Shown piece after piece: positions 1 through 13,409 of a stretch of 25,106 nucleotides of DNA. The notes beneath the pieces were generated by a model that had not been told where the DNA came from, ran no database searches, and worked only from the letters and a program-made list of their open reading frames with translations. The stretch spans positions 1 through 25,106 of IMG/VR virus record IMGVR_UViG_3300046008_000449; one strand, given 5' to 3'. Within the stretch, counting starts at the first letter, position 1; each line of letters starts with the position of its first letter. The DNA comes from a virus. A program made the translations under genes and the position numbers.

Positions 1-155
1 GAGTTACCTGATAATGTTTTGATACCATAATCAGTATCTGAACTTATGTGGAATGTTGGTGTAAATGGAACTGCCTCTGATTTGGCAACACCATCTTCAA
101 TATATCTATGTATAATGTTATTACCATAGACTTTCACTGATGTGTAGAATTTAAT
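1..155 (-). CDS. 43: DNA polymerase gp43, N-terminal fragment (AUU start)
   Basis: Family B replicative DNA polymerase of T4 type; only the first 51 codons are inside the window and the gene runs off the left edge. The translated start reads (I)KFYTSVKVYGNNIIHRYI, which lines up without gaps with the T4 gp43 start as I remember it (MKEFYISIETVGNNI...). No ATG, GTG or TTG lies at the conserved start. Instead an ATT (155-153) stands six bases after a strong SD, GGGAG, and aligns with the T4 initiator Met. The first in-frame GTG is eight codons further in and would remove the first beta strand. A T4-early-like promoter ends about 30 bases upstream. RegA lies just upstream, as next to gene 43 in T4. 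Family call is firm; the AUU start is inference from SD and alignment. Confidence 0.85.
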   Translation of the reverse strand, partial: MKFYTSVKVYGNNIIHRYIEDGVAKSEAVPFTPTFHISSDTDYGIKTLSGN

Positions 156-186
156 TTTAAACTCCCATTGAACTACATAAAATATA

Positions 187-216
187 ATTATAACACAGCA
201 AGTGTTATGTGTAAAC
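187..216 (-). promoter_or_regulatory. T4-early-type promoter for gene 43
   Basis: On the minus strand GTTTAC (216-211) and TATAAT (192-187) are 18 bp apart, the spacing found at all thirteen promoters in the window. The predicted transcript starts near 180, giving a leader of about 25 bases that holds the GGGAG SD of the polymerase gene. Confidence 0.85.
190..208. repeat. Operator-like palindrome inside the gene 43 promoter
   Basis: ATAACAC-AGCAA-GTGTTAT is a perfect 7-bp dyad with a five-base centre. It fills the spacer and touches the -10 box of the polymerase promoter, where a repressor would block RNA polymerase. No other promoter spacer in the window has this dyad. No regulator is known from the sequence. 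Confidence 0.5.
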
Positions 217-268
217 AAAAATTTGACTTAATAGAAGCGTCTACCAGCGAAGTTCTGTTTAATTGAAT

Positions 269-3051: not shown

Positions 3052-3627
3052 CTATTTTATTGCTTTTGCTAATTCCGGTAAAATAGTTACTTTATTTGTT
3101 AAAAGTTTAATTGGTTGATTCCATTTTCCTGGTGGTGTCTTAATTTTTTCTGCTTTATTATTAATTACTATTGGTGGATTCTTAATATTTTTTAATAAAG
3201 CAGCTTCTAATATAGCTTCGTTAATATTATTTGTTAATACTACCATAATAAAATGAAGATATAAGTCAGGAAATGCCAATAAGACTTCTTGTGAGTGTCT
3301 TGCGGCAGGACTTCTATTTCCATCATTCTGAATAAGATCACCTTTATTTGTGGCATGTCTGCCTTTCGAACCACTTGTAAAATTACCTATCTTAATAAAG
3401 GTGTGTTCTTTAAACTTTACTGTTCTCGCAAACTTATTTAATTTAGTAACAACACATTCTCTATCAGTTACTTTTACATTAAATTTTTCTGGTCTATCTG
3501 AGAAAATATAAAACAATACATAGGAACCTTTTTTTTCAATAGGTTCCATATTATTTGTATAGATTGGCTCATATACAATTGTATTTTTCTGAATTATTGC
3601 TTTTTGAGCAGGAGTGATAATAGCCAT
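3052..3627 (-). CDS. Unknown protein, tandem paralogue B (191 aa)
   Basis: Paralogue of 2432-2989, sharing the YVLFYIFS strand, the FIKIGNFTSG motif and the EVLLAFPDLYLHFIMVVLT block. Its ATG shares a base with the stop of the PARP-like gene (TAATG), so it is translated with that gene and may be its partner, regulator or substrate; this link rests on position only. The C-terminal third is Lys/Pro-rich and probably flexible. I do not recognise the fold. Confidence 0.75.
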   Translation of the reverse strand: MAIITPAQKAIIQKNTIVYEPIYTNNMEPIEKKGSYVLFYIFSDRPEKFNVKVTDRECVVTKLNKFARTVKFKEHTFIKIGNFTSGSKGRHATNKGDLIQNDGNRSPAARHSQEVLLAFPDLYLHFIMVVLTNNINEAILEAALLKNIKNPPIVINNKAEKIKTPPGKWNQPIKLLTNKVTILPELAKAIK

Positions 3628-6600
3628 TACTTACCAATCAATGTTAAGAATTTCTCTAATTCAACACGGTCATCTAAGAACTGCTCTGTTGAACTTACAA
3701 CAAATGCCAATGACTCAGCAGTATCAGAAATTACAACTACAGGACCTTGACCAGATAAGTCAACTCGAACATTCTTAAGGTTCAATTTCTTAAATTCCTC
3801 GAATGGTACCTTCTTATCTTTACCAACCGGTATTGAACCATCAATAAAGACATAAGAGATTGCATGAGTATTTGCCACAGAAGAAGCCTTTTTGAATGCT
3901 TTAAAGTTTTTAATTGGTGTTACTACAGACTCTGTCAAACCTGCTGCTTTTTTCATTTGTCGCATTTGAGCACCAGAAATAATCTCAACTTCAAATGCCT
4001 TCTTAATTCTCAGTTGTGAATTTGGTGTAAAGACACACCATTCAGGAGATCTAGTTCTACCATCATTAACACCAGCAGAACTATAATCTTCTTTTGAACC
4101 TAAGTTAGCATCCATCTCAAAGATATAACCTCTAGTACCAGTACCACGAGAATAGCCAGCATCACCAACATATTGACCTACTTTATCTAGTACATTTGAG
4201 AAGTAAATACCATCACCAAGCATACGACCAACAACAAGACCATCACCTGCATTAATAACCTTGAAGCCATAGCGTAAGATCATTGAAGCACCAATTGAAC
4301 CTGTACCATGGAAAGCAGGTGAAATTACTTCTGCTGTTGGATGTGCTTCGTTCCAAGCCTTAACTGAGTCAATCTGTGTAGGAATTGCAACATCATAAGC
4401 CTTATTAAAAATAAGTGCAATATCACCATGGTTGTATCTATTAAATGCATCATATTCAATTGACATTGCAACTAAATCTTGATGATCCTTAACAATAGGA
4501 GTAACATTCAACTTCTTAATTTCTGGTGGAGGTGGTAAGTTAGAAGTAAGTGATTTTAATGTCTCTGCTTTCTTACTATTATAGCCAGGAAGTGATGCTT
4601 CTGAAACAGGAATATCATTATACTTTAATACTTCAACTAAACGCTTATGGTCCATTTTAGCATAAGGTTTAATTGGTGAATCTGAATTAAAGATTTCATT
4701 CATTGCTATACCGGCAGTTGCAATCTGAGCCAAATGTTTAATAGTTGCTCGTTTAAGTCCAGGTCCCATTAAAGCATAAGCTTTTTCGGCTTTTGTTGGA
4801 TTAACATCATGAATTGTATAGATAGTATCTGTTAGTGCATTTGCTAATTGTTTTCTTGATGAAGCATCTTCTGCTTTAAACTCAAGCACTTCAGAAGCAA
4901 CATGTGTCATTCTCATCAATGTTGATTCAGATATCCATTCATCTAAGTTCTTATTTTTATCATTAATACGTGACAAATAATTAACCATTCTCATTGCAGT
5001 TGGAGTAAAAAGATTATAGCTAATGAACTTCTCAAAGTCTTCTGGAGTACCCACAAGCTCAATAGCAGTAAAAGCAATTGAAGGAGATATGTTACTATCT
5101 ACAAATGAAATTTTATCAACTAAGATTTTAGAAAGAATTTCTTTCATTTTAGGTTTAAAGAATTCCATTCTTGAGCTTTTTTCGTCTGTGCTGCCACTAT
5201 CAACAAAACCAGTCATATTATCTAGAGTTAAACTCTTAAGCATCTCAATAGGCAATGTTAAGACTAATGTTGGATTATAACGTAATAGTTGTCTTGAAAG
5301 TGCTGGGTATGAATCTAATAATGAAGCCTGTTCTTCTAATGTAAATACACCAAAGTATTTTGCAATAAATGCTGCAACTGTAGAATGATGATCAAGATTA
5401 ACTCCATCAGCTCTAGCTTTTGCGAGATAAAGATCTAAGAATTTCTTATCAAAAGGAATATTAAATTTAGTATTTGAAGCTTCAGCAACAATTCTAAGAC
5501 CATCTCTATCATCTAATAATTTAGTAAAGAATGTTGAAAGTGTATTTTCGTCAATACCTACAAGTTTATAGATTTCATTAATGAATGGTACTGTATAATT
5601 TCTATCAACAACAAAACTATTGATATCTGTTTCTCTTAATGCTTGAAATACTACAGTCTTAACTGCAGTACCAAGTGAGCCTGTAAAACCATCTATTTTT
5701 CTAAGTTTGCCAACGCTATTATAATCACCTTGTACTTTTAAAATTTGCTTTTTGATTTCAGGTAGACAACCTTTAACTATTTCAGTAAGTTCTTGTTCTG
5801 ATTTAGGATCAAAGAAGACACTTCTCTCAGTAAAGTCATTATAGTCATAGAAAATCCAAGCAGCAAATAGATCTTTATCTTCTGAATTAGTTTTAAGTAA
5901 CTCTAAGACTCTTGGTAAGATTTGTTTTTGGTGGACATCAGATAATTGTTGAAGTTTATATACAAAGTCTTTATATGAATTTTGATTTTTAAATCTATTT
6001 TCTAATAGTAAATCAAGTACACTGTCTGCTGATGTTGACCAACCTTTAGCTTTTAAGATTGATTCTGCTGATGTAATAACAGCCCAGTCTGCATCTGATG
6101 CAACACCTTTAGTTAAAATTTGTGCTGCTGGAGTACTTTGAACTACAAAACCAAATCTATTAAATGCCCTAGTTGCATTTTCAATCCAGATTGAATTCGC
6201 TGAAATAGAATAGATAATAGATTTAAGAGGAGATGAGTTATCTTGTTCTGCTCTTGAATATGGTGCTTGAACAAGACTAGTTGATTGCATCCATTCAGCT
6301 AATGCATTATTATACTTTTCATATTTTCTCTTAATATCATTAAAAGCAATTAGAGTCATTGGTGCTTTTTCAATATCAAGTCTAAGTTGTTTAGTAAACT
6401 CATTCTGTACAACTTCTCTTGCAGTAGCACCAAATGAATATGAAGCATTCTTAAATGTATTTTTAGTTGGAGGTAATTGTTCAACTATTGCTAATGTCTC
6501 AAGCGGATATACAGCAAGAAGTTTATTAATAATAATTCTAACAAAATTAGTATAAGAACTATTATTCTCCTTAGCTATTTTTAATACAGTTAAACTGTTT

Positions 6601-7487
6601 AGTGTAAGTTTAAAATCACTTACATTTGCCTCAAAGAACTTCATGAACTCTAGAATTGCAAATGATGTATTATATTCTTTACATAGTTTAGTTAGTGCTG
6701 CTTTACCATCTACATTCCAAGCCTTCTTATAGAAGTCAAGGTCGACTACTTTAGCCTGAACTACCGGAGGTGTTGGCGCAACTTTAGCAGCAACTGGATC
6801 TACCGTAGTAGTTTGTTGAGTTACTGGATCAACTTTCTTAGTTGGTTGTGTTGCTCGTTGTAATGCTGCAGGTACAGCTGGTACAGAACCAACATCAGGA
6901 ATATTCTTAAATGCAGAATATGCATGATGACACATATCTCTAAAGATACCAACAGACGGTGCATATTGTTTTAATGCTTTTAGATAAAAGATAACTTTTG
7001 TAAATTGAGCCAGTGTAGACTTACCGGACTCAAAGTCTTCGAATGCTGCCAAGATTGCTGGTGATGGTTTACATGCAGATGTTTTAACTTCTGTTGCCCA
7101 ACCTCGAATGATTTTCTCATCAAAATTAGATGAGTTAATAGATTTGTTCTTTAATAACACTAAGAACTTAGTAAGATTTGTTGCTGTAGTAGTTGTAAGT
7201 CCACCTGCTTCAGTCATCAATTTAACTGATAACGACATATCAGTATTTGTATCTGTAATGTTACTTAATTGATGTTTTTGGTCTGTAGAGAAATAAGCAA
7301 CAATTGGTGATTTACCTTGGAAGAAAGACATAATGCCAATCATACCAAAGAAGTTAAACATGAAGTAATTAGCAATATTAGTTTTATCTTTTAAGAAAGC
7401 ATCTTTTTCTGCCTGAGTTGTATAGACAGTACCTTCATTAAGTGGTAAGTTGTGATAATCATTAAAATTCATAGGGTTTTGATCCAT
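3627..7487 (-). CDS. Giant protein with PARP-like ADP-ribosyltransferase domain (1286 aa)
   Basis: Transfers ADP-ribose from NAD+ if active. The catalytic domain lies at about 990-1170 and shows the H-Y-E triad of PARPs: His in FHGTGSIGASMILRYGF (H1060), Tyr in LGDGIYFSNVLDKVGQY (Y1095) and Glu in SPEWCVF (E1149). The preceding IALIFNKAYDV strand and order match the PARP fold. Residues about 1-195 form an N-terminal domain, about 198-247 a Pro/Thr/Val-rich linker, and about 250-960 a long mostly helical region I do not recognise. A short SAP-like stretch (HKRLVEVLKYNDI) and PPPP precede the catalytic domain; about 115 residues follow it. Two starts are possible: ATG 7487, or ATG 7472, which forms an ATGA overlap with the upstream nucleotidyltransferase stop. 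Neither has a strong SD, so coupling is likely. Targets, and mono- versus poly-ADP-ribosylation, cannot be told. Confidence 0.85.
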   Translation of the reverse strand: MDQNPMNFNDYHNLPLNEGTVYTTQAEKDAFLKDKTNIANYFMFNFFGMIGIMSFFQGKSPIVAYFSTDQKHQLSNITDTNTDMSLSVKLMTEAGGLTTTTATNLTKFLVLLKNKSINSSNFDEKIIRGWATEVKTSACKPSPAILAAFEDFESGKSTLAQFTKVIFYLKALKQYAPSVGIFRDMCHHAYSAFKNIPDVGSVPAVPAALQRATQPTKKVDPVTQQTTTVDPVAAKVAPTPPVVQAKVVDLDFYKKAWNVDGKAALTKLCKEYNTSFAILEFMKFFEANVSDFKLTLNSLTVLKIAKENNSSYTNFVRIIINKLLAVYPLETLAIVEQLPPTKNTFKNASYSFGATAREVVQNEFTKQLRLDIEKAPMTLIAFNDIKRKYEKYNNALAEWMQSTSLVQAPYSRAEQDNSSPLKSIIYSISANSIWIENATRAFNRFGFVVQSTPAAQILTKGVASDADWAVITSAESILKAKGWSTSADSVLDLLLENRFKNQNSYKDFVYKLQQLSDVHQKQILPRVLELLKTNSEDKDLFAAWIFYDYNDFTERSVFFDPKSEQELTEIVKGCLPEIKKQILKVQGDYNSVGKLRKIDGFTGSLGTAVKTVVFQALRETDINSFVVDRNYTVPFINEIYKLVGIDENTLSTFFTKLLDDRDGLRIVAEASNTKFNIPFDKKFLDLYLAKARADGVNLDHHSTVAAFIAKYFGVFTLEEQASLLDSYPALSRQLLRYNPTLVLTLPIEMLKSLTLDNMTGFVDSGSTDEKSSRMEFFKPKMKEILSKILVDKISFVDSNISPSIAFTAIELVGTPEDFEKFISYNLFTPTAMRMVNYLSRINDKNKNLDEWISESTLMRMTHVASEVLEFKAEDASSRKQLANALTDTIYTIHDVNPTKAEKAYALMGPGLKRATIKHLAQIATAGIAMNEIFNSDSPIKPYAKMDHKRLVEVLKYNDIPVSEASLPGYNSKKAETLKSLTSNLPPPPEIKKLNVTPIVKDHQDLVAMSIEYDAFNRYNHGDIALIFNKAYDVAIPTQIDSVKAWNEAHPTAEVISPAFHGTGSIGASMILRYGFKVINAGDGLVVGRMLGDGIYFSNVLDKVGQYVGDAGYSRGTGTRGYIFEMDANLGSKEDYSSAGVNDGRTRSPEWCVFTPNSQLRIKKAFEVEIISGAQMRQMKKAAGLTESVVTPIKNFKAFKKASSVANTHAISYVFIDGSIPVGKDKKVPFEEFKKLNLKNVRVDLSGQGPVVVISDTAESLAFVVSSTEQFLDDRVELEKFLTLIGK

Positions 7488-8041
7488 TGCTTAAAAGATT
7501 CAACTAAAGATAAGCCTGCACGTGTTGCATCAAAGACTTGTTTTGCTTCAGTTGTTGTTATTCTTGTTGGTAAATTCTTACTAAAATTTATAAAGTCATT
7601 TGCTGTGGCATACTCACGCATTTTAGTACCAGAGATACCTTCAGTACGAGCACCAGATGACTTAGTTGTGATTGAATTGAATGTATAATTCTTCTCGTTA
7701 CCATTATATTTCTTGTAGTCAGTGCCTTCTTCGTCTCTATCATCACCAACCATGATTGTCACATCTGTGTAACCACTTAAATAGAGTTTACGAAGAGCAG
7801 AGAACATGTGGATCACTTCTTTGTTTGGATCCAACTTAACAGACTTAGGAAATAGTCTATGGAGAATTTTAGATTTAATGTTATAATCTAGTGGATTCTT
7901 TTTCTTATCTTGAGAGTGAGAAAGAAAAACAAATGGTTCTGCACCAATTCTTTTTGCCTCTATCTCAACCTGTTTAATATTCTCTTCATGACCTACAGTG
8001 AACGGATTCATGCGGCCAAATGTGACAACGGCTTTTTTCAT
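7469..8041 (-). CDS. HxGH-type nucleotidyltransferase (cytidylyltransferase/NMNAT-like)
   Basis: Member of the adenylyl/cytidylyl-transferase superfamily that joins a nucleotide to a phosphorylated substrate. GRMNPFTVGHEENI near the N-terminus (T15-V-G-H18) is the (H/T)xGH signature, and ISGTKMR (137-143) is the second ATP-binding motif. A central GDDRD segment follows a beta strand. Substrate is not certain: NMN or nicotinate mononucleotide, a cytidylyl acceptor or another phosphate ester are all possible. The start is at 8041: GGAAGA precedes it and ATGA overlaps the primase stop; the ATG at 8053 lies in the SD. It overlaps the PARP-like gene downstream, an enzyme that consumes NAD+, so a role in NAD+ supply is attractive but unproven. 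Confidence 0.85.
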   Translation of the reverse strand: MKKAVVTFGRMNPFTVGHEENIKQVEIEAKRIGAEPFVFLSHSQDKKKNPLDYNIKSKILHRLFPKSVKLDPNKEVIHMFSALRKLYLSGYTDVTIMVGDDRDEEGTDYKKYNGNEKNYTFNSITTKSSGARTEGISGTKMREYATANDFINFSKNLPTRITTTEAKQVFDATRAGLSLVESFKQWIKTL

Positions 8042-9045
8042 ATTTTCTTCCATTGAGCTAATTTCATTTTTGCATTGAGTCCTGAATACTGATTTTGATC
8101 AACTAACATTTGAACATCATGTCCAGCTAAGACCATATCATTTAAGTCTTTTTCTTGTATGTAATCAGGAAAGATAACTACTTTATATCCTTTATTTATT
8201 GCATTTGTAATTTTAGAGACTATGACTGGTGATCGTGGTTCATTATCAAACACTAACACTAAATCACAATCATTGAGTTTTATGTTTGCTCTTTCTAGTG
8301 CAGAGTCTGCTGTGGCAACTGCATTACTAATGAAACAACTATCAAATGGACCTTCTGTAACAAATACTTGTTTTGATCTGTCTAATCTATTTACACCAAA
8401 TAGTTTGACATCAGAGTCATCAAAGCCAATAGTTAAGTATCGCCACTTTTTATCTTTAGAGAAAGTTCTTATTTGAATGAAGTTACACGTACCATCAACT
8501 GTAACAAATGGAATAACGATACCTTCAATTTTAGGAATAGACAAGGTATAGTCAAGCCCGTAGAATTCAAAAAGGTCCATAGCCAAACTGCTAGCATCAT
8601 TAGTATAACCAAAGATTGAGACATCAGGGATTTTCCTATCAGTTAAAAATTTAAGAGCGTGTTCTGGAAGCTTCCAGTTAATATGTTGTTCCCACTTAGA
8701 CTTTAGGACTGTCTTAGTTTTCATATAAGACAAATCTTCTTTTGGTTTCTGTGTTGTGTTTAATGCAAATCTTTCAAGGTTGTATTCTTGATATAGACTC
8801 GGAACAAACTTCTTAAGGAAACCACCAAGAGGGAGTGAGATGCCACAGTTGTGGCAGAAGTAGAAAATGTTATTCGATTTCTCAAAGAACCAACCACGAG
8901 CTTTTGTTTCTGATTTTGCAGAGTCATTACAAGCAATACAACGACAGTTAAAAGACTCTGGTCCCTTTTGAGTAAATCTAGGGAGATGAGAACTTAATCT
9001 CTTGACATAATTGATCTGAGCAAATAATGGTAATTCGTTCGACAT
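8038..9045 (-). CDS. 61: DNA primase, gp61-type
   Basis: Makes RNA primers for lagging-strand synthesis with the replicative helicase. The N-terminal zinc-binding part has CIAC (36-39) and CHNC (64-67). A TOPRIM core follows, with FVTEGPFDS (the conserved Glu) and the acidic VFDNEPRS and DYIQEKDLNDM motifs. At 335 residues it is close to T4 gp61. SD AGGAATT precedes ATG 9045. Its own promoter (9099-9070) starts the primase-nucleotidyltransferase-PARP operon. The first codons form an inverted repeat with that promoter's spacer. Confidence 0.9.
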   Translation of the reverse strand: MSNELPLFAQINYVKRLSSHLPRFTQKGPESFNCRCIACNDSAKSETKARGWFFEKSNNIFYFCHNCGISLPLGGFLKKFVPSLYQEYNLERFALNTTQKPKEDLSYMKTKTVLKSKWEQHINWKLPEHALKFLTDRKIPDVSIFGYTNDASSLAMDLFEFYGLDYTLSIPKIEGIVIPFVTVDGTCNFIQIRTFSKDKKWRYLTIGFDDSDVKLFGVNRLDRSKQVFVTEGPFDSCFISNAVATADSALERANIKLNDCDLVLVFDNEPRSPVIVSKITNAINKGYKVVIFPDYIQEKDLNDMVLAGHDVQMLVDQNQYSGLNAKMKLAQWKKI

Positions 9046-9999: not shown

Positions 10000-10935
10000 C
10001 TATTTAAAATTTAATGACATCATTGCTTCAACAGAAAATGCAGCCATTTGGATCTCTGGGTCAGCAGATGCCATACAACGGTTCTGATAAGTTGCAATTA
10101 ATAGAACTGCATCTGGAATACTCGTTGGTTCAAGAACATCATACATATTATCATACACAGCCCTAAAGATTGTATGTACATCTTGATTAACCATTGTCTC
10201 AACAATCCATTGACGAGCACCCTTAAAGTTCTTTGTCTTTAAGAAACCAACAAAATCATTAACATCAATATCATATGAAACAATGCTAGATTCTGTAATT
10301 TCACCTGCAACCGAAGCAACACGTTGACATTCATTAATAATTCTACGGAAGTCTGGGAAGTGATGTTTTACAATTTCACCAACAACTGCTTGGTCAAACT
10401 TAACATTCTCTGCAGTTAAAATATTAATAATTCTTTTGAATAGTTTCTTAACAACATCTATTTTATCTTCATTTTTAATACTAAAATCAAACACAGCACA
10501 ACGAGAATGAAGTGGACTAATAATCTTATTAGGGAAGTTGCAAGTAAAGACAAAACGTGTGGTTTTTGAGAAGTCCTCCATTGCAGCACGCATACCTTTT
10601 TGTAAGTCCGGTGTTGCATTATCAAACTCATCTAATATGACCATTTTCATATTGCCATCAATAGATGCTGATGTAGCAAATGCTGTAATTTCATTTCTTA
10701 ATACTTCAATACCACGAGAATTTGATGCATTCATAATCATCATATCATAATTCATTGCCTTAGCAAGTGCTTTAGCAATTGTGGTTTTACCAATACCAGC
10801 AGGACCATGTAACATTAGATGAGGCATCTCACCAGAAGCAACAAATGACTCAAATTCTTTTTGAGCAAGTGGTGGCAAAACACAGTCTGCAATTTCTTGT
10901 GGGCGGTATTTTTCAACCCAAAGTGTCTGTGACAT
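10000..10935 (-). CDS. 44: Clamp loader large subunit, gp44-like AAA+ ATPase
   Basis: ATP-driven clamp loader that opens and places the sliding clamp on primed DNA. Shows the RFC/gp44 signature LWVEKYRPQ at the N-terminus, Walker A GPAGIGKTT (44-52), Walker B VILDEFD (99-105), sensor-1 FTCNFPNKI and the arginine finger SRC (144-146). At 311 residues it is close to T4 gp44 (319). SD GGAGATTTAA precedes ATG 10935. Its gp62 partner follows after one unknown gene; no gp45 clamp gene was found in the window. Confidence 0.93.
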   Translation of the reverse strand: MSQTLWVEKYRPQEIADCVLPPLAQKEFESFVASGEMPHLMLHGPAGIGKTTIAKALAKAMNYDMMIMNASNSRGIEVLRNEITAFATSASIDGNMKMVILDEFDNATPDLQKGMRAAMEDFSKTTRFVFTCNFPNKIISPLHSRCAVFDFSIKNEDKIDVVKKLFKRIINILTAENVKFDQAVVGEIVKHHFPDFRRIINECQRVASVAGEITESSIVSYDIDVNDFVGFLKTKNFKGARQWIVETMVNQDVHTIFRAVYDNMYDVLEPTSIPDAVLLIATYQNRCMASADPEIQMAAFSVEAMMSLNFK

Positions 10936-11767: not shown

Positions 11768-12325
11768 ATGGAATTTATTCCTACATATCTTTGCATCAAA
11801 CAACATGCCATCACAGGCAAACTATATCTCTGTAAAACAACTAAGAAAGATCCAATAAAATATAAAGGTTCTGGTAAACATTGGAAATCTCATATAAAGA
11901 AGCACGGTAAAGAACATGTGGTTACTTTATGGTATCAATTATATGATAATGTATTTGATCTAGTTGCAGACTCACTTGGTATGTCTATAGCATTTAATAT
12001 TATTAAATCTGATTCATGGTTAAATCTTATTTTTGAATCTGGTTTACACGGTGGTAACAGAGGGAGAAATTCAAATGAAATTAATTCAAAGATAAGAAAT
12101 TCACTTCTTGGTCACAAATTATCAGAAGAAACAAAATTAAAAATAAGTAAAACTTTAACCGGACAACCATCTAAAAATAAAGGTAAACATTTATCAATAG
12201 ATACAAAGAATAAACTTTCTCTTGCATTAAAGGGAAAAATACACCCAAGAATTATCTGCGAAATATGTGGAGATAATATAAGTGAATTTATGAAAACAAG
12301 ACATTTCAATACTTTCCATCTTTAG
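11768..12325 (+). CDS. Homing endonuclease, degenerate GIY-YIG with NUMOD3 repeats
   Basis: Free-standing mobile endonuclease gene, the only convincing plus-strand gene here. The N-terminal part (TYLCIKQHAITGKLYLCKTT.KDP.KYKGSGKHWKSHIKKHG, read in parts) matches the phage GIY-YIG-like group, though the usual YFGKTT is LYLCKTT. LLGHKLSEETKLKISKTLTG and a second copy near 150 are NUMOD3 DNA-binding repeats. The C-terminus has a zinc-finger-like C164-x2-C167...H179-x4-H184. SD GAGGAG precedes ATG 11768. The substituted Gly leaves open whether the nuclease is active. It converges with, and overlaps by 20 bases, the FmdB-like gene on the other strand. Confidence 0.85.
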   Translation: MEFIPTYLCIKQHAITGKLYLCKTTKKDPIKYKGSGKHWKSHIKKHGKEHVVTLWYQLYDNVFDLVADSLGMSIAFNIIKSDSWLNLIFESGLHGGNRGRNSNEINSKIRNSLLGHKLSEETKLKISKTLTGQPSKNKGKHLSIDTKNKLSLALKGKIHPRIICEICGDNISEFMKTRHFNTFHL

Positions 12326-12491
12326 AAAACCACCCACTACCTTTAAGTTCAAAGTTAGGTGCTGAATTATGAACCTGCACTAGCGAGTCATAACCACATT
12401 TAGGACAAATAGTAGGGTGTGGATCGTTAATACTTTTCTTTACTTCTTGTTCATGTCCACATTTTAAACACTGGTAATCATAAAAAGGAAT
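12306..12491 (-). CDS. FmdB-like zinc-ribbon protein (61 aa, AUU start)
   Basis: Small zinc-ribbon protein: (I)PFYDYQCLKCGHEQEV, then ICPKCG, then FELKGSGWF near the end, giving two CxxC pairs (C8/C11 and C29/C32) and the LKGSGWY-type ending of the FmdB family. Family members start MPxYxYxC; here the Met position is ATT (12491-12489), seven bases after AGGAG, and no in-frame ATG, GTG or TTG precedes the conserved PFYDYQC. The SD overlaps the stop of the 2OG oxygenase gene upstream, so it belongs to that operon. Role in phages is unknown, perhaps regulatory. Confidence 0.85.
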   Translation of the reverse strand: MPFYDYQCLKCGHEQEVKKSINDPHPTICPKCGYDSLVQVHNSAPNFELKGSGWFSKDGKY

Positions 12492-12501
12492 TTTAAATCT
12501 C

Positions 12502-13029
12502 CTATAGATAGGTTAATGAAGTCATCATGATGAATTTCTCACCTGATGTTGGAGTTTCACCTGAGTGAGGGAACATCCATGTTGGAGGGAAGACAAGCAT
12601 AGTGCCCATCGTAGGTTTAACTTGTAAATCAAGATTAGTAAATCTAGTATAACCATCATTGTCATTTAAGTACATAATGAATGTGAGAAACCGCTTGGCA
12701 GAAGCATGATCAACAACATCAACATGAGGTTTGAAACCACCATCATTTGCCGAATATCTTTTAATTCTTACTTCTTCAAAGCCATACTCAGGAATGTAAT
12801 CATAAATGTTCAATGACTTAAAGTACTGAATAGCCAATTTGTTACACATCTTTGCAAAGTCTTTAGCCATAAAAGGTAAAACTTTATTAACATTAACTTG
12901 GTCAAACTTATAGCCTGGTGTATCATGATGTTCTATATTAGCTTCATCATTGAATAAGTCAATCAAATGCTTACAATCAAAGTCATTGAAGTAATCTTTT
13001 ACATCATAGACCTTTATGTGACTTTTCAT
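12502..13029 (-). CDS. 2OG-Fe(II) oxygenase, prolyl-4-hydroxylase-like
   Basis: Non-haem iron dioxygenase using 2-oxoglutarate and O2 to hydroxylate a substrate. In the 175-residue product the iron ligands are H102-x-D104 (PHVDVVDH) and H155 (FPHSGETP); K165 stands where the 2-oxoglutarate-binding Arg/Lys is expected (GEKFIMMTSL). The double-stranded beta helix is suggested by FLTFIMYLND and GTMLVFPP. Start ATG 13029 forms an ATGA overlap with the macro-like gene and has GGAAAG upstream; longer in-frame starts lie inside that gene. Such oxygenases are common in large marine phages; the substrate is unknown. Confidence 0.88.
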   Translation of the reverse strand: MKSHIKVYDVKDYFNDFDCKHLIDLFNDEANIEHHDTPGYKFDQVNVNKVLPFMAKDFAKMCNKLAIQYFKSLNIYDYIPEYGFEEVRIKRYSANDGGFKPHVDVVDHASAKRFLTFIMYLNDNDGYTRFTNLDLQVKPTMGTMLVFPPTWMFPHSGETPTSGEKFIMMTSLTYL

Positions 13030-13409
13030 AGATATACTTTCCAGTCTTCGGCAAAAGAACAATTACTATTGCATTCTCTAAAAAGAGGTGCAATCACATC
13101 ATCTGTGTAGCCAGCAAGACCACATCCAATTCTAGTCACCCAGAATTTCATTTTAGGATTAGCATGAGTGAACTCAGCAAAAGCATCAATGTGTGGAATA
13201 ATATCATACAAAGGCATTGTTCTTATATTCTCATCCTTAGTAGGAATAGCATAAGAGTCATGACTTAACCCGATACCTTTACCATATTGAGCACCATAGT
13301 TTAGTGCTGCCTTTGCCGCACCTGCACCATGAATACCAGCCAAGTTAGAACCAAAAACAAAAATTACATCATCTTCTGTTGGTTCAGTTCCGTCTTTATG
13401 AAATTTCAT
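13026..13409 (-). CDS. Macro-like conserved phage protein (127 aa)
   Basis: Belongs, from memory, to the phage family annotated as A1S_2505 non-structural protein. VIFVFGSNLAGIHGAGAAKAA has an Asn and a glycine-rich loop like the ADP-ribose-binding loops of macro domains, followed by SYAIPTKD and WVTRIGCGLAGY, again macro-like in order. That it binds ADP-ribose or a related nucleotide is inference. It overlaps DHFR upstream and the oxygenase downstream (both ATGA), so the three are co-translated. Confidence 0.75.
   Translation of the reverse strand: MKFHKDGTEPTEDDVIFVFGSNLAGIHGAGAAKAALNYGAQYGKGIGLSHDSYAIPTKDENIRTMPLYDIIPHIDAFAEFTHANPKMKFWVTRIGCGLAGYTDDVIAPLFRECNSNCSFAEDWKVYL

Follow-up and report, generated by a model that had tools for sequence, protein, structure and literature searches.

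This locus raises the question of whether a small FmdB-type gene is started at AUU, where its homologues have AUG, and whether such a start belongs to one phage or recurs in the gene family. The window analysed is the entire 25,106-base IMG/VR virus record IMGVR_UViG_3300046008_000449. Judging from its gp44, primase and gp43 N-terminus (Table 1), it is a fragment of a T4-like phage, and 44 of its 49 retained ORFs lie on the minus strand. The clamp loader gp44 was at most 47-48% identical to that of other phages. When FmdB, the polymerase N-terminus and the clamp loader were used as queries, no near relative of the phage was found in viral contigs, the clamp loader giving the best match (48%). 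No tRNA was detected in the window or in ten of the loci, and hence no phage initiator tRNA there. Two further ORFs on the minus strand were noted. A 138-aa ORF just before the polymerase (344-760) presumably resembles the translational repressor RegA, with the gene order of L024 and L026, and the C-terminal part (HGTGSIGASMILRYGF...) of a 1286-aa protein (3627-7487) looks by eye like a PARP-like ADP-ribosyltransferase.

Table 1. Features of the window that bear on the two ATT starts and on the type of phage
Feature	Position	Strand	Details
T4-like DNA polymerase (gp43), N-terminus	1..155	-	start ATT 155-153; truncated by contig end
Shine-Dalgarno GGGAG of polymerase	162..166	-	6 nt ahead of ATT
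Primase	8038-9045
gp44 clamp loader	10000-10935		phrog_168
Homing endonuclease gene (NUMOD3)	11768..12325	+	convergent with FmdB; domain/PHROG matches
FmdB-type zinc-ribbon gene	12306..12491	-	61 codons + TGA; start ATT 12491-12489
Shine-Dalgarno AGGAG of FmdB	12499..12503	-	7 nt ahead of ATT
2OG-Fe(II) oxygenase gene, upstream of FmdB	12502..13062	-	domain/PHROG matches
In-frame TAA upstream of FmdB ATT	12513..12515	-

An earlier note on this DNA had described AGGAG, seven bases and ATT at the head of an FmdB-like zinc-ribbon gene without giving the strand; all three elements were present on the minus strand, with ATTTAAA (12498-12492) as the spacer. The 61 codons encode IPFYDYQCLKCGHEQEVKKSINDPHPTICPKCGYDSLVQVHNSAPNFELKGSGWFSKDGKY and end at TGA (12308-12306). 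The family assignment was confirmed by PF09723 (FmdB / Zn_ribbon_8), matched at 43 bits against a Pfam gathering cut-off of 34.4 (E 4.5e-11), and by phrog_1076 'FmdB-like' (E 8.2e-7). The family signature [M]PxYx[YF]xCxxCG plus a second CxxC was found as [ATT]PFYDYQCLKCG ... CPKC, with ATT encoding the first residue; the frame was intact, and all four predicted zinc cysteines were present. None of the seven sense codons between the upstream TAA and the ATT was ATG, GTG or TTG. The earliest canonical codon downstream was a GTG at codon 38, past the fourth predicted zinc cysteine, and a start there would lose both CxxC pairs. The note was thus right that no in-frame canonical codon precedes the conserved part and that the gene escapes normal gene calling, since a caller that accepts only ATG, GTG and TTG has no start to use here. 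More distant phage FmdB genes carry ATG, TTG or GTG at the exact site of the window's ATT, which bears out the placing of ATT at the Met; relatives with ATG have it at that same position and not at a shifted one. As expected of an AUU-initiated gene, the window FmdB has AUU where its homologues have AUG, no usable canonical start and a proper Shine-Dalgarno sequence.

The TAG of the upstream oxygenase gene (12504-12502) overlaps this Shine-Dalgarno sequence and sits 10 nt ahead of the ATT; for the oxygenase itself, an in-frame ATG at 13029-13027 is a more likely start than the listed TTG. The 3' end of FmdB is overlapped by 20 nt of the NUMOD3 homing endonuclease gene. RNA folding at the FmdB start was no better than that of shuffled sequence. 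In a PDB search with the window FmdB, the top match was an RNA polymerase subunit (E 0.037) and no closely related structure was found; nor was any close relative of the gene found among viral contigs or named phages. L002 was considered as an orthologue and rejected, its aligned Met position being an internal codon. FmdB genes were few in named phages, with canonical starts where examined; Enterobacter phage EspM4VN (L023 601-705) has an FmdB frame that is missing from its annotation and starts at an ordinary ATG.

When 2.9 million IMG/VR viral contigs were scanned for a Shine-Dalgarno sequence, a chosen codon and an FmdB N-terminus, ATT gave 36 stretches, 21 of them distinct (clustered at 85% identity over the first 60 residues); the window was not among these matches, and records very near it may be omitted from the scan. 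The codons scanned were ATT, ATA, ATC, 36 others (BNH) and ATG. Clean cases, in which no ATG, GTG or TTG separates an upstream stop from the codon, made up 15 of the 36 ATT stretches (13 distinct), L112 being excluded because its frame runs to the contig edge; 8 of the 21 distinct cases had some in-frame canonical codon upstream. The ATA and ATC scan yielded 8 stretches, all ATC, of which 5 were clean. The 36 BNH codons yielded four stretches, each within a longer frame with an upstream canonical start, and so none clean. ATG-start FmdB genes were found in at least 120 stretches.

The non-canonical start was retained among relatives at 57-60% identity (L111/L127/L138), 60% (L128/L141), 52% (L108/L116) and 50% (L123/L139), and an identical ATT start occurred in four contigs of different metagenomes (L113, L118, L130 and L137). 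In a tree built from 120 FmdB rows, which was poorly resolved, start class switched 20 times, at least 5 of these switches being forced by starred branches, and was slightly more clustered than in shuffles. Since the start is retained at 50-60% identity and its class switches repeatedly, AUU probably arose many times independently in phage FmdB genes and was kept thereafter. The core claim of the earlier note stands and is broader than stated, the AUU start recurring in unrelated phage FmdB genes.

The recurrence was specific to FmdB. Homology-defined start sites with a Shine-Dalgarno sequence were counted in 279 sequences, from which the window copy (L001) was dropped. Other genes of the same loci had 942 canonical starts (898 ATG, 34 GTG and 10 TTG) and no ATT or ATC; the remainder comprised 11 ATA, 1 ACG and 2 AAA, the last being FmdB genes whose start had been placed one codon too early. 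The 11 ATA sites were rejected as hidden starts, as they look like antisense shadows of other genes. FmdB sites in these sequences were 114 ATG, 1 GTG, 14 ATT and 4 ATC, but the FmdB loci had been chosen by codon, so that of these counts only the absence of ATT and ATC from other genes can be taken at face value. Given the codon and other-gene controls, a Shine-Dalgarno sequence with ATT where a Pfam-confirmed gene should have its Met is far beyond chance. The ATT pattern was matched just four times in 84,980 genomes of bacteria and archaea, two of these matches lying within longer frames. Matches were present in 106 of 398 genomes from one phylum, and among the matches listed all were ATG except the centre genome's own ATT. 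Two scans for hidden AUU genes outside FmdB gave no convincing case; the ATT matches of one scan look like chance frames, except perhaps one in L249. There, on the minus strand at about 2630, AAGGAGG and an ATT or ATA precede a 65-aa frame, possibly of a membrane protein, that lacks a canonical start in the vicinity and may be a non-FmdB case.

Sequence features of the class were compared between 19 distinct clean AUU/AUC cases, comprising the window and loci among L107-L142 and L263-L270, and 92 distinct ATG cases among the matches listed. The Shine-Dalgarno match was longer in the AUU/AUC cases (5.9 vs 5.1 nt, p 0.012), but under a stricter measure, the presence of GGAGG or AGGAG, the difference was not significant (16/19 vs 58/92, p 0.11). 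The base preceding the start was C in 10 of 19 AUU/AUC cases and 7 of 92 ATG cases (p 2e-5); the window ATT is preceded by A. Common to AUU-start FmdB genes was a good Shine-Dalgarno sequence at a distance of 5-9 nt from the AUU or AUC, and the codon was often preceded by C. They usually lay clear of the upstream gene, whereas ATG FmdB genes mostly overlapped it, indicating that translational coupling is not the common factor.

The polymerase start proved to be as the earlier note had described, with GGGAG, TTTAAA and ATT, and the ATT fell in the Met column of an alignment with seven T4-like polymerases, all seven agreeing. An in-frame TTG lies 21 codons upstream, with no Shine-Dalgarno sequence seen before it. 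T4 gp43 regulates its own translation at a hairpin; in the window (1-218, minus strand) a hairpin takes in the Shine-Dalgarno sequence and the ATT of the polymerase, but it was not significant (z -1.06). The TTTAAA flank, cited in the note for an initiation mode common to FmdB and the polymerase, was not supported as part of the signal. In this AT-rich window, 2.68 occurrences of TTTAAAATT are expected and 4 were counted, and GGAGNTTTAAAATT, allowing up to 2 mismatches, likewise had 4 where chance predicts 2.39, so that the common flank is not significant; nor was TTTAAA a common trait of other AUU-start FmdB genes.

The codon itself fared better. Among 34 AUU/AUC-FmdB records searched, a T4-like polymerase was found in one, G416 (the record of L130), which is distant from the window (27-38% identity at three matching genes). 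Its polymerase frame of 920 codons has no canonical start ahead of codon 133 and opens TAG GGA AGG TGT ATT ATT, with ATT aligned to Met; alternatively, translation might begin at an ATG further upstream and reach this frame by a frame-shift, which would add 13 residues absent in relatives. ATT at the polymerase start was rejected as a general T4-like trait, since the aligned codon at 34 loci was ATG in 23, TTG in 2, GTG in 1, another codon in 8 and ATT in none; for those eight (CAA 4, AGT 2, AAT 1, TCA 1), an ATG was visible one or two codons upstream. Three T4-like polymerases in ATG-FmdB records likewise had no ATT start, and a PF09723 search of 50 T4-like records gave no matches. An ATT polymerase start was thus present in 2 of 2 T4-like phages with ATT-FmdB, whereas all 37 other T4-like polymerases examined lacked it (Fisher p 0.001), a small, post hoc association that is suggestive of a link and lends the shared mode some support. 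A general link to polymerases was rejected because polymerase A genes in six AUU/AUC-FmdB records have canonical starts available near the N-terminus.

Several other explanations of the ATT were weighed. An HNH or GIY-YIG endonuclease gene inserted before FmdB could have displaced its ATG, the 3' end of the endonuclease gene supplying the Shine-Dalgarno sequence and the ATT, and the codon being tolerated because FmdB is dispensable or little needed. Among distinct AUU/AUC cases with a scored upstream ORF, 7 of 26 (L108, L110, L116, L128, L140, L141 and L265) had such a gene immediately before FmdB, compared with no more than 4 of 84 ATG cases scored likewise (Fisher p 0.003); the ATG figure is an estimate summed over the first 25 families. 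FmdB adjoins a gene of about 549 aa in L152/L210, but the two are separated by small ORFs and an HNH gene in L128 and L141, and in L128 the Shine-Dalgarno sequence is located within the HNH 3' end. A homing endonuclease also abuts FmdB in the window, but downstream and on the opposite strand. Moreover, 19 of the 26 cases had no such gene upstream, and an insertion scar does not explain the occurrence of ATT and ATC but not ATA, the zero for 36 other codons or the better Shine-Dalgarno sequences. We consider this explanation unlikely; endonuclease insertion may be one route of ATG loss that leaves the AUU/AUC choice and the other 19 cases unexplained. The window is a single contig with no close relative for comparison, which would allow an assembly or sequencing error or a dead gene. 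However, the contig has two such sites, each with a Shine-Dalgarno sequence and each at the homologous Met, the four contigs from different metagenomes and the unrelated phages show the same codon, and the intact frame with its four cysteines speaks against a dead gene, so that an artefact is scarcely credible.

It is also very improbable that FmdB has no start of its own and is reached by frameshift, readthrough or obligatory re-initiation from the oxygenase gene, or from an ATC at 12509-12507. The short distance from the oxygenase stop would suit such a route, and IF3 also limits re-initiation (PMC2268962). However, AUU FmdB genes of other phages often stand 26-108 nt behind the upstream gene while ATG cases mostly overlap it, the ATC precedes the Shine-Dalgarno sequence, and a frameshift would not require a Shine-Dalgarno sequence and ATT at the Met. 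A closer contender, to which we give somewhat less than an even chance, is that AUU simply reduces yield as a weak start, the role proposed for it in pcnB, without regulation by IF3 or infection stage. In S. aureus cvfC1, AUU output was about 10% of that of AUG and the growth medium had no effect (PMC13009471). On the other side, every codon of this kind is reported to be subject to IF3 in E. coli and Streptomyces (PMC5472188), so that some IF3 sensitivity of the FmdB AUU is to be expected.

The reading we favour, and consider likely, is that the window gene is real, is started at AUU by means of a strong Shine-Dalgarno sequence, shares a recurrent trait of phage FmdB genes and yields a scarce product under IF3. 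The AUU is probably used and the yield probably low, with IF3 control suggested by analogy with cellular genes. The strong Shine-Dalgarno sequence would position ribosomes on the FmdB mRNA, and initiator tRNA would read the AUU as formyl-Met. Going by other AUU genes, this start would lower FmdB yield several-fold to ten-fold; discrimination against AUU by IF3 would keep the protein scarce and let its level track the balance of IF3 to ribosomes during infection. Phage FmdB genes of many lineages would have kept or regained AUU, less often AUC. Recurrence in phages and rarity in bacterial chromosomes point to a deliberate start, low or regulated.

A bolder version, which we hold to be improbable, is an AUU/AUC translational regulon, in which FmdB and the T4-like replicative polymerase would be made only when IF3 per ribosome drops in infection. 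It draws on the polymerase starts (2/2 vs 0/37), the specificity for FmdB and one AUC-FmdB phage with an IF3 gene. FmdB might also influence initiation directly and so govern its own start in the manner of IF3. The IF3 gene was seen at 55382-55618 (L317) in G428, the record of L264. This phage record spans 219 kb and its FmdB starts at AUC, but its IF3 gene starts at a normal ATG; IF3 genes occurred in 1 of 33 AUU/AUC records and 0 of 50 ATG records, too few to judge.

Until now, AUU starts were known one at a time, each from an individual cellular gene. If they are family-wide and enriched in phages, gene finders systematically miss or misdate such genes, and start-codon choice may be a phage tool of gene control. 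The same small gene has AUG and AUU versions in relatives, making yield, timing and IF3 dependence comparable. A literature search returned no paper on AUU-start FmdB genes of phages, and the literature searched contained no account of AUU recurring in one phage gene family while being nearly absent from the genomes of bacteria.

Among known systems, phage T4 gene 26 has an internal AUU start giving a shorter product. It resembles the window FmdB in having AUU in a T4-type phage, but its start is internal. FmdB genes of Klebsiella and Enterobacter T4-like phages (L280-L282) belong to the same family and have the same Met position, but start at TTG, ATG and ATG. The AUU start of E. coli pcnB (PMC9410913) is shared with the window FmdB, although pcnB is a cellular gene and a single example, with no family-wide recurrence. 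IF3 represses non-canonical starts (PMC5472188), and its gene infC starts at ATT in E. coli, ATC in Streptomyces and AUA in S. aureus (PMC5472188, PMC9410913, PMC13009471). Like the window FmdB, infC has an isoleucine-codon start with a Shine-Dalgarno sequence, and the AUU and AUC choices are the same; however, IF3 represses its own start, whereas the window gene is a zinc ribbon with no IF3 gene seen alongside. The sigR gene of Streptomyces has an IF3-repressed GTC start (PMC5472188). This non-canonical start is missed by gene finders, as in the window FmdB, and the protein is held low; sigR differs in its codon and in being a single gene. The nearest published parallel is cvfC1 of S. aureus, which encodes 61 aa with a putative zinc finger and has an AUU start identified by ribosome profiling, with a strong extended Shine-Dalgarno sequence, conserved among staphylococci (PMC13009471, Nat Commun 2026). 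It differs in being a bacterial chromosomal gene, and the available text of the paper does not name FmdB; kinship through PF09723 is putative. In length, start codon, strong Shine-Dalgarno sequence and a zinc finger, putative in CvfC1, the two genes are alike.
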